From a virus: a DNA stretch of 64,000 nucleotides. The notes beneath the pieces are model-generated. The model was not told the origin of the DNA, searched no databases, and worked only from the letters and a program-made list of their open reading frames with translations. The DNA is taken from positions 1 through 64,000 of the IMG/VR virus record IMGVR_UViG_3300050166_000025; one strand, given 5' to 3'. The position numbers and the translations under genes were made by a program. This document shows positions 1 to 57,575 of the stretch, piece by piece. Positions within the stretch are counted from its first letter, which is position 1; each line of letters opens with the position of its first letter.

Positions 1-829
1 CTTTCCATAAATCCCAAGTATCTGATACGATTGAAAGAATTCCTGTTGGATATGTTTCCATCAAGTTTCGGAATGTTCCAACCTCATCTTCTTTAGATCC
101 AGCACACATAACTGAGTGTTCAGTTGCATTCACAGAACCTGCTACAAATCCTTCTTCATTATAGAATTTACGTGCTCCAAAGATTGCTGGTAAACTGTCA
201 GAACCAGAGAAACTTGTTAAGTGACCTAATCCCGAACTAATAACAGCATCAACTGAATCCATACCACGCATTGAGAAGTCATGTCCTTGCCAATCAATAA
301 ACCAACCGCGTTCAGCATCGGTTTTTTCTTGCCATTTAGTCAATACTTTTCTGTATGTGTGAGCGATTGTAGCTGACGTCATTGGCTTCCATAACAAATT
401 AGAGATAATTGTCTCTAAGTAATTCGTTATCCAATAGAAATCGGGATGCGTGTTGTAAATTGTTAATACTGGTACCTTGATTGGTACTAATGTTCCCTCT
501 TTAATTGCCTTAACATTGATAGGTAAATAGCCTAGGTCATGTAGAGCTTCAAAATGTGATACATCATAATCAGTACCTAAGTACATCGATAATTCACGTT
601 TCATTTCACCACAAACTTCATCTTTAGATTTACTAAAGAATTCGTTTTGAAATGCTTCGTGAATTTGTTGTACAACCATTTGCTGTCCAAATGAAACTAC
701 TTGTTCACATCCGATAGGAGCATACTTGTTACTACGAGGTGTGAAGTTTGAATATACTAAAGTAGTTCCTTTAGGATATTGTTTGTGATGGCCTGTTTTG
801 TAACCATCTGTTAAAAATAAAGGATTCAT
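1..829 (-). CDS. nadV: Nicotinamide phosphoribosyltransferase-like (NAMPT/NadV), partial, C-terminus beyond left edge
   Basis: The family joins nicotinamide to PRPP to make NMN in NAD salvage; in phage NARP1 a NAMPT homologue (Namat) instead joins nicotinamide to ADP-ribose-pyrophosphate. The 276 visible residues start at an ATG and carry family landmarks: DGYKTGHHKQYP near residue 8, GHDFSMRGM near 182 (substrate Asp), ATEHSV near 235 (catalytic His) and SDTWD near 269 (acidic residue). The C-terminal part lies outside the window. The gene starts 12 bases after the stop of the PRPP-synthetase-like gene and has no promoter of its own that I can see, so the two form an operon, probably driven from the TATATTTGC element at 1710. 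NAMPT-fold assignment is firm; whether it uses PRPP or ADPR-PP cannot be read from sequence. Confidence 0.93.
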   Translation of the reverse strand, partial: MNPLFLTDGYKTGHHKQYPKGTTLVYSNFTPRSNKYAPIGCEQVVSFGQQMVVQQIHEAFQNEFFSKSKDEVCGEMKRELSMYLGTDYDVSHFEALHDLGYLPINVKAIKEGTLVPIKVPVLTIYNTHPDFYWITNYLETIISNLLWKPMTSATIAHTYRKVLTKWQEKTDAERGWFIDWQGHDFSMRGMDSVDAVISSGLGHLTSFSGSDSLPAIFGARKFYNEEGFVAGSVNATEHSVMCAGSKEDEVGTFRNLMETYPTGILSIVSDTWDLWK

Positions 830-841
830 ATATTTTTATAA

Positions 842-1690
842 TTAAAATACGTTAAACTGTTTCACTTTATCGGGAGCACCTTCAATTTCTTTATAAGAAT
901 TAGTGGTATAAATGCCTTCAAAACACTCTTCTAACTTAGAGTATCCTGCGCTGAAAATACCATGTGTTACGACTAAATAAATTTGAGCACTCGGTCTACC
1001 CCATTTGATTGCATTTGCTAATTCTACAAAAGTTCTGCCGCCATCACAGATATCGTCAATGATAATATATTTAATATCATTGTGCTGGTCTAGGGTTGGA
1101 ATTTCTGTTCGAAGAATATCTCCAGTTTTCATATCACGTACTTTATTAGCGGTGATGATTTTCTCAATGCCAAATTCTTTTGCAACATCAAAGATTTTCT
1201 TATAAGCTCCAGCATCAGGACTTACTAGACAAATTTGACTTTTATCTACGTTAATATCCTTTAGCGCATACTTAACCATGATATGATTAGGAACCTTCAT
1301 ATAATTATTTAAGCATGCTTCTAATACATCTGAATGTGGGTCTAATACTGCAACCTCTGCAAAATTCAATGAGTTAATAATTGGACAAATCACCTGCTTT
1401 AAGTAATTAACTCCTCCTTTTTGAAATTTACGGTCTGAGCGTGAACCTAAAAAATAAGGTGCATACAGAGTAATAGGTCGGTCTGTTAAATTACGAAGCG
1501 CTTGCGTTGCACAAATTAAGAGTTCAACATCTTTAAATGAACTTAAGCGTGTATTGATTTGAATTACATCAGTATATCTTTCAATTACGCTCCAATCGGT
1601 TAAGTCAACCGTTTGTTGTCCATCCGGAAACTGACTGATTTTATATTCAATCTGGGATTTTTCTGCGTTTACTAAGTCTAATTTTATCAT
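842..1690 (-). CDS. prs: Ribose-phosphate pyrophosphokinase-like (PRPP synthetase or ADPR-pyrophosphate synthetase)
   Basis: This 282-residue protein belongs to the PRPP-synthetase family, which transfers pyrophosphate from ATP to ribose-5-phosphate. Visible motifs are the ATP-loop SRSDRKF (83-89), the metal site DPHSD (117-121), SPDAGAYKK (157-165) and the PRPP-binding IIDDICDGGRTF (210-221). It is somewhat shorter than typical bacterial Prs (about 315 residues). It lies directly upstream of the NAMPT-like gene and is preceded by a TATATTTGC promoter element. In the phage NAD-restoring pathway NARP1, a Prs homologue (Adps) makes ADP-ribose-pyrophosphate for a NAMPT homologue; the same gene pair is seen here. 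Motifs alone cannot decide between ribose-5-phosphate and ADP-ribose as substrate. Confidence 0.9.
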   Translation of the reverse strand: MIKLDLVNAEKSQIEYKISQFPDGQQTVDLTDWSVIERYTDVIQINTRLSSFKDVELLICATQALRNLTDRPITLYAPYFLGSRSDRKFQKGGVNYLKQVICPIINSLNFAEVAVLDPHSDVLEACLNNYMKVPNHIMVKYALKDINVDKSQICLVSPDAGAYKKIFDVAKEFGIEKIITANKVRDMKTGDILRTEIPTLDQHNDIKYIIIDDICDGGRTFVELANAIKWGRPSAQIYLVVTHGIFSAGYSKLEECFEGIYTTNSYKEIEGAPDKVKQFNVF

Positions 1691-1709
1691 CTTTTATTTT
1701 GTTTGATAA

Positions 1710-1740
1710 GCAAATATAACTAAAAAACCCGAGAATAAAA
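1710..1740 (-). promoter_or_regulatory. Early/middle promoter candidate P1 (prs-NAMPT)
   Basis: On the minus strand TATATTTGC (1718-1710) follows a TC dinucleotide at a fixed 14-nt spacing, and the prs ATG lies 19 nt further on. The box fits the Bacteroidota TAnnTTTG element exactly. The same layout recurs at four other sites in this window. The upstream part overlaps the terminator hairpin of the preceding gene. Confidence 0.6.
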
Positions 1741-1749
1741 AATCTCGGG
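1722..1749 (-). terminator. Rho-independent terminator after the 303-aa gene
   Basis: The minus strand reads CCCGAGA, a short AT loop, TCTCGGG and then TTTTTT. The hairpin sits 10 bases after the stop of the upstream gene and shares bases with promoter P1. Confidence 0.85.
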
Positions 1750-1758
1750 CTAATTATT

Positions 1759-2743: not shown

Positions 2744-3319
2744 TCAATTATTTTTATAGAACCAAACATCTTGTGAATAATCATGTTGAAAAGTGGCCCC
2801 TAGCTCTTTGAAAAATTCATTTACTGCGTCATATACGCCTTGCCAATATTTTCTGCCCTCAACATAGTCGTGACCTGCAATGATACCACCAGCTTTAACC
2901 TTTGGAAACCAGGCTTTAATATCTGCCATCACATCTAAATAATCATGCGAAGCATCTATAAAAACAAAATCTAGACTGTTATCTGCGTATTTGCTAGCAG
3001 CATCAATGGAATTGAGCTGGACTGTATTAATTAAGTGCTTTACGGGTCTGACATTCAGCATAAAATCCTCATATAATGCCCTATTCACTACGATATCATG
3101 TTCTTGGTGCTCAATGGAGCCTTCCCACGTATCGACACAGTCAAATCTTATCCACTTTGCAGAGTTATTGATTTCCACGGCCATAAACGCAGCGCTTCGG
3201 CCTCTCCAGCTACCTACTTCTACAAATCTGGCGCCAGGCTTTGCTGATTCAACAATCTGCTTATAGAATTCAGAGTAATTAAACCAGTCTTCTCCAATAC
3301 TTTGATAAAAATGTTCCAT
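2744..3319 (-). CDS. Class I SAM-dependent methyltransferase (Methyltransf_24-like)
   Basis: The SAM-binding glycine motif FVEVGSWRGRSAAF lies near residues 32-46. An acidic strand FVFIDASHDY lies near 117 and a GGIIAGHDY stretch near 145, a pattern typical of class I methyltransferases found in glycan and small-molecule modification clusters. The acceptor is unknown. The ORF ends the accessory island and overlaps the nuclease gene by one base. It is paralogous to the gene at 5127-5729, which has the same motifs in the same order (VELGAFKGRSTSYL, FIFFDTHHEY, GSIASGHDW). A role in modifying a sugar or virion glycan is inferred only from the neighbouring glycosyltransferases. Confidence 0.8.
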   Translation of the reverse strand: MEHFYQSIGEDWFNYSEFYKQIVESAKPGARFVEVGSWRGRSAAFMAVEINNSAKWIRFDCVDTWEGSIEHQEHDIVVNRALYEDFMLNVRPVKHLINTVQLNSIDAASKYADNSLDFVFIDASHDYLDVMADIKAWFPKVKAGGIIAGHDYVEGRKYWQGVYDAVNEFFKELGATFQHDYSQDVWFYKNN

Positions 3320-3903
3320 TAAAATTGTTTAATTATATATTGCTGCCAAGGCTTTGTTGGCTTTTCATTCTTAAAATAATATGCCTGGTAAGGCTTATCA
3401 TTCTTGAATATTGTCTTCTTAAAACCGGCCGGAATCAGGGCTCCGTGAGCGCCTCTTTTACTACCAGTGAAATCTAATTCAATTAAGATATTGACTATAC
3501 CTTTACCGGCAAGTTCTTTCTCGTAGGCTTCTAACTCTTTCCAGGCTCCTCTATTCAGGTCTTTATGTTGCAGAGCGCAGTTAACGTACGAGAAGGTGGT
3601 TCTTAATAGAGTTGAGTCGCAGTTAAAATCAGCGGCCGGGGCCATGTGACCCTTATCCCACTCGTTCTGCTCATAGTCCTTTGAGTCTGAGGTGTGAATC
3701 CCGGGAACAGTGTAGAAATCTAAGCCCGTTCTATCATACCATCTTGGTGAAGTGTGAGAACACTTTACCTGATACTCGACCCTTAGTGGTTGCTCATAGT
3801 CCTCTGAATACTGAATTTGATATACGTCATTCTTAACCTGAACAGTTGCAGAGGAGATTAAGAGATAGAACAGTGAGAAAATAGATAAAAGTGGTGCCTT
3901 CAC
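3319..3903 (-). CDS. DNA/RNA non-specific endonuclease (NucA-type beta-beta-alpha-metal) with signal peptide
   Basis: This 194-residue protein starts at GTG and opens with a signal peptide (MKAP then a hydrophobic stretch to about residue 20), so it is probably exported. The catalytic motif is WDKGHMAPAADF near 82-93, a version of the DRGH signature with His86 as general base. The metal-ligand region is VNCALQHKDLNRGAW near 107-121 with Asn118. Family members cut DNA and RNA without sequence specificity using Mg2+. A phage could use it to degrade host or competing nucleic acid in the periplasm or outside the cell. It sits between a methyltransferase and the zinc-ribbon protein. The fold is well supported; the role is inferred. 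Confidence 0.85.
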   Translation of the reverse strand: MKAPLLSIFSLFYLLISSATVQVKNDVYQIQYSEDYEQPLRVEYQVKCSHTSPRWYDRTGLDFYTVPGIHTSDSKDYEQNEWDKGHMAPAADFNCDSTLLRTTFSYVNCALQHKDLNRGAWKELEAYEKELAGKGIVNILIELDFTGSKRGAHGALIPAGFKKTIFKNDKPYQAYYFKNEKPTKPWQQYIIKQF

Positions 3904-4727: not shown

Positions 4728-4756
4728 ATTGTATTTCTCTATGAAGAGAAAAATGA

Positions 4757-5048
4757 GGAGAGTGAGGGATTCGAACCCCCGGTCCTGTTACAGACTTCGG
4801 TTTTCCTTACTACTATAGCTTTCGCTACCATTTAAAATGTTTGATAGTCTGGACTTTATCTCAACCATATCATTTCTGACTTAGGCCATCCCCGTCAAGT
4901 CTCTACACCTTCCTATCACTAGGCTTGGCTCGGGGTTGCCATTTTACAGGTTTCTCCGAATTTGAGGATGTTTGCAACATATCTTTTCAAATATGCAGCT
5001 CGATTTTAGAATTAAGACCGACGCGTTCGACCGCTCTGCCAACTCTCC
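4757..5048 (-). tRNA. tRNA-Ser(UGA) interrupted by a group I intron
   Basis: The 5' exon is 5048-5014 and the 3' exon 4805-4757. Joined, they give acceptor GGAGAGU/ACUCUCC, a 35-nt 5' half of the same length as E. coli tRNA-Ser, anticodon stem UCGGU/ACCGA, loop CUUGAAA with anticodon UGA, a long class II variable arm closed by GUC/GAC, and T-arm GGGGG-UUCGAAU-CCCUC. No CCA is encoded. The D-stem has one A-C mismatch. The exon junction lies between U34 and G35. A late-type motif (AGATATATAG, 5071-5080) lies about 22 nt upstream of the mature 5' end. Confidence 0.85.
4806..5013 (-). ncRNA. Group I self-splicing intron in the tRNA-Ser anticodon loop (208 nt)
   Basis: The intron begins after U34 of the tRNA and ends in the expected terminal G (4806). 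CUU of the 5' exon can pair with GAG about 12 nt into the intron to form P1 with a U-G pair at the splice site. Core elements in order are GCAACCCCGAGCCAAGCC (about 4939-4922), GGUGUAGAGACUUGACGGGG (4909-4890) and AUAAAGUCCAGACU (about 4860-4845). These closely match the core of the small cyanobacterial tRNA-Leu(UAA) group I introns, which occupy the equivalent anticodon-loop position. There is no room for an endonuclease ORF. Confidence 0.88.
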
Positions 5049-5126: not shown

Positions 5127-5729
5127 TTATTTTACCTTTGTGTACCAACTCGTTAAAAAGTGCTCATATTTTAGATGTGGCAGGTCAATCTTGTGTATTT
5201 TACGGCTCTCAATGGTTTCACAATCACCGAAAACTTCTTCAACGGCATGTCTAACTCCAGGATGACCCCAATCATGACCCGACGCGATTGAACCGGTTTT
5301 AAGTTTTGGTAACCATTGACTTAATTCATCCACTACATGCTGATACTCGTGGTGCGTATCGAAGAAAATAAAGTCTACTTGATTATTCTGAAACCCACTA
5401 GCGGCGTGAATTGAATCAGATCTTACTATATTAACGAAGGGCAATGACAATCTCTCTGCGCCTACAAAGTGCTTAAACTGCTCAAGGGTATCAGTATTCT
5501 CTATCTCTTCGTGCTTTTCAAAATCAAAGTCCCAGGCCCACTTATCTATAACATGTAGCTGAATCTGCTTTCCGCTTTCTTGAATCCTATCTATTAGATA
5601 TGAAGTAGAGCGACCTTTAAATGCTCCTAGCTCTACGAAAATGGCTCCTTTTTGGGCATGATCCACTGCCATATCGTAGATGTCTGTGATTTCGTTATCA
5701 CACCATCCTGGGATTTGATTCCACTCCAT
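5127..5729 (-). CDS. Class I SAM-dependent methyltransferase, paralogue of 2744-3319
   Basis: This 200-residue protein has a SAM-binding motif FVELGAFKGRSTSYL near residue 31, an acidic strand VDFIFFDTHHEY near 121 and SGHDW near 151. It shares the order and wording of these motifs with the methyltransferase at 2744-3319, so the two probably arose by duplication within the island. Its start overlaps the stop of the oxygenase-like gene, forming a tight operon with the oxygenase and the glycosyltransferase-like genes upstream. The acceptor is unknown. Confidence 0.8.
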   Translation of the reverse strand: MEWNQIPGWCDNEITDIYDMAVDHAQKGAIFVELGAFKGRSTSYLIDRIQESGKQIQLHVIDKWAWDFDFEKHEEIENTDTLEQFKHFVGAERLSLPFVNIVRSDSIHAASGFQNNQVDFIFFDTHHEYQHVVDELSQWLPKLKTGSIASGHDWGHPGVRHAVEEVFGDCETIESRKIHKIDLPHLKYEHFLTSWYTKVK

Positions 5730-55709: not shown

Positions 55710-57575
55710 TTATTTGTTAAATTCTTTGAATTGTTCAAATGTTAATATCTCTGATTCCTCAAAGGTTTCAACTGCTTCAACCAGGCTTAAAGATTTCTCT
55801 AGCTTTTCTTTCAACTCATTAAACATAGGGTGCAACGAGGACGGAGTCATCTTATTGAATTCTTTAGTGTCTCCTGACTCTAATGCTGCTCTAACTTTAG
55901 TGGCCGAGATATCGTCATCTCCTCTTTGAATCTCATGCAGTTCAAATTCTGGAAGAACTCCTAACTCCTCACGATACTTATCATTATTAACCATGTATCC
56001 ATAGGCTTTCATTCTATCGGTGCCTGTGCCCCATAAAACAGGTTCATACTTAGGTCTTAACTCGTTGAACATTACGTCAATTGCAGCAGATGGAACAACT
56101 ATCACATCCTTTAAGAACTTAAATTCTTTTTGAACGTGATTGAACATTTCAATCTGTGTTTCAGTGTCGTACGGTCTCTTGATTGCATCTTCTTTCTTTG
56201 CTTTTGCAGCCTTTACTAAGAATACAACCACTGGAAAACCATTTTTCTTGTATAATGTTTCTAAGACTTTGACGTGGCCTAGTGTAAATGGCTGAAATCT
56301 TCCAACGAAGATATTAACCTTCTCTTTTCCTTGCTCGGCATGAGCAACTTTAAGAGCCTCATTCAGGTTAGACTTAGTGGTCTTAATCTTATTATGAAGC
56401 ATATATGTGTTAAAATTATGGATAGCATTCTCATCTGTTACTTCAGAATAGATGTGCTCCTCAATTTTATCTATAATCTCGTTTAACTGGTCTATCATTG
56501 TTTGATTCATCAATGAAGACTCCTTAATTTTTCTCTTGTTGAATGAGCCTAAAATTATCTTAAACAACTCGGCTAACATTGGATTCTCAACGTAATTCAG
56601 TGTCTTTTCGTTCTCAATCCATTTTGTATTCAACTCGAACACCTCTGATTTTGCAAATTCTGCCGGCTGAAAATTAACGCCAACATACTTTGTGGCATTC
56701 TCTTTTACATAATCATTATACATTACTGAAATTAACTGAATGTATCTTTTATCGGCGGCCGCTTCTGTCAATTCAACCGCATCAATGCTGTAATTAGAAA
56801 AGAATTCTAAAATATCTACCATTGTTAATTGGTACATGTGACTGCCTTCTCTCGGCTCACTATTAGATTCGGCCTTTAGGTCATCTAACTTAAATGATTT
56901 GATTTGAGTAGAGTCAATAAAGCTAATCACTAATCCATCAATCGGCTTTACTAAATCTTCGTTTAAAACTGATTTATATGCAGAAGGATTAAACATCTTA
57001 TATACGTACTGTGTAAATGATTCGTTTGCAAATCTTGTAGTGTAAGCCTCATTTGAAGTGGCTAATAGATTTACTAGTAAATTTCGCTGTGATTCATCTA
57101 GAATACCCTCAAACACTACAGAGGGAGCCTGAACCTCTAGTTTAGTAGCCCATTCAGTTAAGATGACAGGGTCTGTTAGGACTTTCTTAACTTTTCCAGT
57201 ATTGCTTAACACTTGAATGTGTGAAAGAATCATTGAGTTATACGGAGTCTGATCATATTGAATTGAAGAAACTGAAGTCTCTGGTAAATAATCAAAGCCA
57301 AATTTCCAATCAGTTGGCATGTCTAGCTTAGTATTCTTTACTAGGGCTTGAAAATGCTTGATTCCTGTCTCGTATAATGATGTTAAAGTTCTATCTACCA
57401 TTGACATTGGCTCCGAGTTACCAGATTTAAAGTATTCAAAGCCTTCTAAACCTCTTCTAACGTGAAAAGAGGCCGCAGCAATCTTTTCAGTTACTACCAC
57501 CTTTTGTTTCAACATTTCATTGAAAGCGTTTGAATTTGTTGCTTGATAAAAGTCTTTAAGTCTTTGTAGTGCCAT
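55710..57575 (-). CDS. Fusion: ligase-superfamily nucleotidyltransferase plus NMN adenylyltransferase-like domain
   Basis: Residues 20-235 look like an RNA-ligase-type nucleotidyltransferase: motif I VTEKIAAASF with Lys31, motif III KFGFDYL near 91, motif IV DGLVI at 213-217 and motif V KSFKL at 226-230. Residues 415-565 form a separate nucleotidylyltransferase (NMNAT/NadM type): GRFQPFTLGH at 425-434 (the HxGH site) and ISATKVR at 556-562. The C-terminus has a targeting-like LTFEQFKEF. NMNAT converts NMN and ATP to NAD and would complete a pathway with the NAMPT-like gene at the left edge; all are driven by P-class promoters. The ligase domain's substrate is unknown. Confidence 0.82.
   Translation of the reverse strand: MALQRLKDFYQATNSNAFNEMLKQKVVVTEKIAAASFHVRRGLEGFEYFKSGNSEPMSMVDRTLTSLYETGIKHFQALVKNTKLDMPTDWKFGFDYLPETSVSSIQYDQTPYNSMILSHIQVLSNTGKVKKVLTDPVILTEWATKLEVQAPSVVFEGILDESQRNLLVNLLATSNEAYTTRFANESFTQYVYKMFNPSAYKSVLNEDLVKPIDGLVISFIDSTQIKSFKLDDLKAESNSEPREGSHMYQLTMVDILEFFSNYSIDAVELTEAAADKRYIQLISVMYNDYVKENATKYVGVNFQPAEFAKSEVFELNTKWIENEKTLNYVENPMLAELFKIILGSFNKRKIKESSLMNQTMIDQLNEIIDKIEEHIYSEVTDENAIHNFNTYMLHNKIKTTKSNLNEALKVAHAEQGKEKVNIFVGRFQPFTLGHVKVLETLYKKNGFPVVVFLVKAAKAKKEDAIKRPYDTETQIEMFNHVQKEFKFLKDVIVVPSAAIDVMFNELRPKYEPVLWGTGTDRMKAYGYMVNNDKYREELGVLPEFELHEIQRGDDDISATKVRAALESGDTKEFNKMTPSSLHPMFNELKEKLEKSLSLVEAVETFEESEILTFEQFKEFNK

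Follow-up and report, generated by a model that had tools for sequence, protein, structure and literature searches.

The window analysed here is the stretch of DNA formed by bases 1-64,000 of the 151,111-base virus record IMGVR_UViG_3300050166_000025. The record encodes a terminase, a portal and a tail sheath, genes of a contractile-tailed phage. Two adjacent minus-strand genes lie at its very start, with the following features.

2-829, minus strand: Namat-like protein, N-terminal 276 residues; matches PHROG 448 (nicotinamide phosphoribosyl transferase) at E=2.4e-110; frame open at the record start
698-733, minus strand: region of the selectivity-clamp loop in the Namat-like protein (residues 33-44, SNKYAPIGCEQV), including Lys35-Tyr36
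830-841, minus strand: 12-base spacer between adps and namat
842-1690, minus strand: Adps-like protein (PRPP-synthetase fold), 282 residues, complete; matches PHROG 619 (ribose-phosphate pyrophosphokinase) at E=1.6e-69
1706-1720, minus strand: candidate phage promoter element GTTATATTTGCTTAT ahead of adps, exact match
1726-1751, minus strand: terminator-like hairpin of the upstream gene, which sets that gene apart from the adps-namat unit

A preliminary description of this DNA had recognized a NAMPT and a Prs homologue 12 bases apart. Both minus-strand reading frames are indeed real, because the strength of the PHROG 448 and PHROG 619 matches argues that neither is a chance ORF; the NAMPT Pfam domains also scored above their cut-offs and the Prs Pfam domains slightly below theirs. 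The namat frame is open because the record starts at window base 1, and the protein loses about 230 C-terminal residues to this edge, including the positions of R306, D308 and the clamp helix (see below). The missing half was not found in the rest of the window or at the far end of the 151-kb record.

The same description had given the pair its own promoter. An exact GTTATATTTGCTTAT, which we take to be of the Bacteroidota -7 type (TAnnTTTG), does end 15 bases ahead of the Prs-like ATG, downstream of the hairpin. The best other copies, with one mismatch each (2704-2690 and 57606-57592), also stand ahead of an ORF. However, the motif at up to three mismatches was found 19 times for 14.9 expected, no excess over chance, and a promoter belonging to the pair is thus only plausible. 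The two genes are probably co-transcribed, adps first. Near the pair we also observed two Methyltransf_24 genes (2744-3319 and 5127-5729, minus strand) and, between them, a gene for a non-specific DNA/RNA endonuclease (3319-3903).

Characters of the Namat-like and Adps-like proteins

The features that distinguish Namat from Nampt derive from the crystal structures of the SPbetaL1 Namat (PMC12774641). The Namat clamp loop holds either an Arg or a Lys/Tyr with a stacking residue directly after it, the version with Lys being the Bas63-type arrangement, and the clamp helix has the signature GSX-T/S-X-Q/N-X-N/V-TRD (PMC12774641). Since the window copy is incomplete at the record edge, we also considered its nearest relative, the 182.8-kb contig L007, whose Adps is 94% identical and whose Namat is 92% identical over the shared half.

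Over shared columns, the Namat-like half was 50.7% identical to the SPbetaL1 Namat and 30% to the Xanthomonas Nampt. It scored 291 bits against the SPbetaL1 Namat (9W5X) and 132 against human NAMPT; with the full-length L007 Namat, these scores were 530 and 195 bits. The clamp loop carries Lys35-Tyr36, in agreement with the published rule, and Lys35 aligns with SPbetaL1 R40. As a reference for the nicotinamide/ribose site, we used SPbetaL1 D13, Y15, F189, S190, R192, D215, A242, R306 and D308. The window protein keeps all seven nicotinamide-site residues of its half (D8, Y10, F185, S186, R188, D211 and A235) together with the catalytic-His motif TEHS; R306 and D308, both beyond the contig edge in the window copy, are kept in L007. 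The clamp helix, likewise past the edge, reads GSFTYQFNTRD in L007, an exact signature, and GSFTYQYNTRD in the Namats of loci L008 and L009 and of SPbetaL1. In its place, the Nampt yardsticks RB16 and Xanthomonas have GMGGxLLQxV[TD]RDTQK. Finally, in the phylogenetic tree the Namat-like protein fell among the proteins of viral and flavobacterial pairs, and cellular Nampt was placed separately. All together, these characters make a Namat assignment near certain for the lineage; for the window copy we infer it, the clamp helix being taken from the 92%-identical L007.

For the Adps-like protein, structure prediction and an active-site comparison with Prs had been proposed as a check, and they returned a Prs fold with the catalytic residues kept and a ribose-phosphate loop of the Adps type. 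The AlphaFold model had a pLDDT of 92, and its best Foldseek matches were all PRPP synthetases (query TM 0.73-0.82). The catalytic Prs letters R84, D86, H119, D159, K183, R185, D212, D213 and H243 are conserved. The ribose-phosphate loop reads DGGRTF in the window protein, as opposed to DTGGTL in Prs. We compared five cellular Prs sequences with an Adps set of 50 proteins, of which almost all have a Namat-type gene nearby. This set included the Adps of SPbetaL1 and of DyoEdafos, the activities of which are published (PMC12774641 and PMC13232231, respectively). Differences that are fixed or nearly fixed in the set were found at S120, A162, F221, L239, L75, D54, P118 and G217, and the window protein carries the Adps-side letter at all eight positions. 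The G217 position, in the ribose-phosphate loop, is Thr in all five Prs and Phe in the SPbetaL1 Adps. As they were drawn from five Prs sequences, these columns are best taken as marks of lineage, not of proven ADP-ribose specificity; a literature search for a published Adps structure found none. In the Adps tree, cellular Prs formed one group (SH-aLRT 99) and the window protein emerged inside a 21-row viral clade (SH-aLRT 99) that clusters with flavobacterial Adps (96); the deep branches were weak (SH-aLRT 78), as was the placement of the DyoEdafos Adps.

A candidate NARP1 module and its alternatives

We interpret the window pair as a phage NARP1 module (Adps and Namat), with a probability of about 0.88. 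The NARP1-type pairing put forward in the preliminary description is thus well supported, by the homology to SPbetaL1, by the clamp residues (the loop in the window, the helix in L007), by the trees and by the conserved pairing of the genes. The enzyme activities are predicted from sequence. Adps (842-1690) would transfer the pyrophosphate of ATP to the free ribose of ADP-ribose, yielding ADPR-PP, and in the second of two steps Namat (2-829 and beyond) would combine ADPR-PP with nicotinamide to form NAD+. Such two-step rebuilding of NAD+ has been demonstrated for SPbetaL1-type pairs (PMC12774641). ADP-ribose and nicotinamide, the presumed substrates of the pair, are what TIR, SIR2 and SEFIR NADases leave behind. 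Because both are products of NADase defences, the phage would restore its NAD+ and so escape a defence based on NAD+ depletion.

The NARP1 of the Bacillus phage SPbetaL1 (WIT26982 and WIT26983; Namat PDB 9W5W/9W5X) resembles the window in its adjacent genes, adps first, in the Namat half with all its nicotinamide-site residues and, through L007, in the clamp helix. It differs in its clamp loop, where the window has Lys-Tyr in place of Arg40 and two additional residues, and in its Adps, which is only distantly alike (64 bits). In addition, the window Namat is incomplete, as it runs off the contig. The Mycobacterium phage DyoEdafos has the same Adps and Namat families, with the clamp helix GSFTYQHNTRD; however, RyDEP lies between its two genes, whereas the window has no intervening gene. 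RyDEP is a RyR-domain enzyme that releases ADP-ribose for NARP1 (PMC13232231). Nampt of NARP2 or of canonical salvage (Nampt with Nmnat; RB16, Xanthomonas) shares the overall fold and the nicotinamide site, but the identity is about 30% and neither clamp helix nor clamp loop is present.

Three other readings were weighed. The pair may perform the same chemistry for another purpose, serving the general NAD+ and nucleotide economy of the phage instead of counter-defence. This reading is compatible with NARP1 chemistry and differs in the benefit alone. Related chromosomal pairs lie with an NrtR-like regulator, and NAD+ homeostasis is likelier there than anti-defence; published phage pairs, however, protect against NAD+-depleting systems (PMC12774641), and we consider a purely economic role unlikely.

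Less probable still is ordinary NAD salvage, in which a true PRPP synthetase and a true Nampt would make NMN, to be converted to NAD+ by the host or, in a NARP2-like manner, by a protein encoded further along the window:

55710-57575, minus strand: NMNAT-like-domain protein, 621 residues, with a C-terminal nucleotidyltransferase domain (GRFQPFTLGH ... DDISATKVR)

Both window proteins do fall within the Prs and Nampt folds, and an NMNAT-like domain is encoded in the same genome. Moreover, the published Namat retains Nampt activity, making NMN from PRPP in vitro (PMC12774641), which leaves room for a use of the pair as Prs and Nampt. Against this stand the signature of the clamp helix in the 92%-identical L007, the clamp loop in the window, and the Adps-type ribose-phosphate loop and tree grouping. 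The same clamp helix and clamp loop speak against NARP2 in the sense of a clamp-less Nampt with a dedicated NMNAT.

The preliminary description had seen in 55710-57575 a possible route to NARP2, which the data do not bear out. The domain is only weakly NMNAT-like, scoring 29 bits where curated NMNAT models have cut-offs of 127-198, and its best match in the PDB was at E=0.004. The protein is long, is conserved at about 60-78% among viral contigs and has a poor predicted fold (pLDDT 49); in the N-terminal part of the family consensus, ligase-like motifs could be seen by eye (TEKIAAPSF, DGLVISF and IKSFKL). Namat was not found in five tested contigs that carry a homologue, one of them of 139 kb and all possibly fragments. 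With a sub-cut-off domain and no linkage to Namat, NARP2 through this protein is not supported; its sequence and conservation suggest a phage core gene and not a NARP partner.

Lastly, a decayed Namat, the record end marking a true truncation or rearrangement inside the gene, is very improbable: the ORF does run off the contig, and no remainder of it lies elsewhere in the 151 kb, but the record starts within an open frame without a stop, as from an assembly break, the 276 residues are 92% identical to intact L007 without a frameshift, and the 182.8 kb of L007 indicate that about 30 kb are probably missing from the window record.

Gene neighbourhoods in phages and Flavobacteria

An alignment search gave 80 viral loci, which together with the first seven were reduced to 62 non-redundant relatives. 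In 53 of these 62, Namat was encoded on the same strand and no more than 5 kb away, and the clamp signature was present in 44 of their 46 full-length Namats. Two further gene types recurred near the pair: a macrodomain gene in 28 relatives, a Nuc_deoxyri_tr2 gene in 27, and either one in 43. The macrodomain proteins are similar to human TARG1/OARD1 and to yeast Poa1, an ADP-ribose 1''-phosphate phosphatase. Examples are:

L013:5930-6397, L010:6734-7207, L031:5885-6400, L033:5852-6370, L021:2426-2902 and others: TARG1/Poa1-like macrodomain genes, next to adps and namat or lying between them
L008:1692-2171, L009:7868-8335, L033:6761-7255 and others: Nuc_deoxyri_tr2 (PF15891) genes near adps or namat

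Copy number and distance were determined in 20 virus records, hand-picked and thus not a random sample. In these, the macrodomain gene was single-copy in 15 and at most 0.9 kb from adps in 13; Nuc_deoxyri_tr2 was single-copy in 16, and at most 9.9 kb from adps in 16 of 16, the records being 38-344 kb long. In Vibrio phage AG74, the macrodomain gene lies between adps and namat.

No relative of the macrodomain, Nuc_deoxyri_tr2, ARH, NrtR or RyR proteins was found in the 151-kb record, which starts inside namat; a neighbour may still lie on the 3' side of namat, beyond this edge. The sole macrodomain of L007 is divergent and 49 kb away from the pair. In L007, adps and namat are 2.2 kb apart, and a protein that reads as a GIY-YIG homing endonuclease is encoded directly before namat (L007:7300-8037). 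The extended module is therefore a property of the relatives, and the window phage shows the compact two-gene form only.

The linked genes raise the possibility, which we rate at slightly less than even odds, that NARP1 in this lineage forms the centre of a more extensive ADP-ribose-recycling module, which flavobacterial chromosomes also have and of which the window phage has the compact form. In such a module, the TARG1/Poa1-like macrodomain, and perhaps Nuc_deoxyri_tr2, would free ADP-ribose from its derivatives, and Adps and Namat would turn it into NAD+. The sources could be ADP-ribose 1''-phosphate, acyl-ADP-ribose, ADP-ribosylated macromolecules or cyclic signals. A macrodomain feeding ADP-ribose to Adps and Namat would be comparable to RyDEP in DyoEdafos. 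A limited literature search, which does not establish absence from the literature, found no paper joining macrodomains with NARP1. We also considered whether the ICP1 DarT counter, AdfB, might be an earlier example of a macrodomain linked to NARP1; the source passages on it showed no connection to NARP1.

Bacterial NARP1 as such has already been published (PMC12774641). Among the loci L106-L185, which are from Bacteroidota chromosomes, mostly Flavobacteriaceae, the Namats share 56-65% identity with the phage protein and carry the full signature, and Adps is encoded near Namat in most, in two arrangements. The L113 Namat reaches 66.7% identity over the shared half, again with the full clamp signature and Adps nearby. 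These loci differ from the window in being cellular and larger clusters, often with Namat before Adps and with NrtR-like, ADP-ribosylglycohydrolase-like, HAD and Nuc_deoxyri_tr2 genes nearby (the names NrtR and ARH come from sequence reading, not from a family search). At E<=1e-100, Namat was detected in 16 of 196 sampled Flavobacteriales genomes (about 8%). Flavobacteriales chromosomal clusters are also the nearest non-viral relatives of the phage genes, which bears on the origin of phage NARP1.

The pair would thus be an additional case of a known system, NARP1, and the genes linked to it in the relatives may point to a system with more parts than those described so far. With this pair, the range of NARP1 would come to include a large group of mostly uncultivated phages, and NAD+-depleting defence would be predicted in the hosts of that group. 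Together with the macrodomain and Nuc_deoxyri_tr2 genes, the pair suggests that phages, and Flavobacteria, may gather ADP-ribose from several sources for NAD+ synthesis.

Elsewhere in the record, we observed a LOG/SLOG-family protein (PF03641, PF18306) at G000:C1:147640-148395 (L006:3640-4395). In Thoeris ThsA, SLOG domains bind signals derived from ADP-ribose, and by analogy a link of this protein to NAD signalling is conceivable. The window also contains a tRNA-Ser(UGA) gene (4755-5048, minus strand), the anticodon loop of which is split by a 208-nt group I intron. The plain tRNA scan missed this gene; it was recovered by ARAGORN with introns allowed, and the intron matched Rfam RF00028 with a score of 53.4 bits (cut-off 50).
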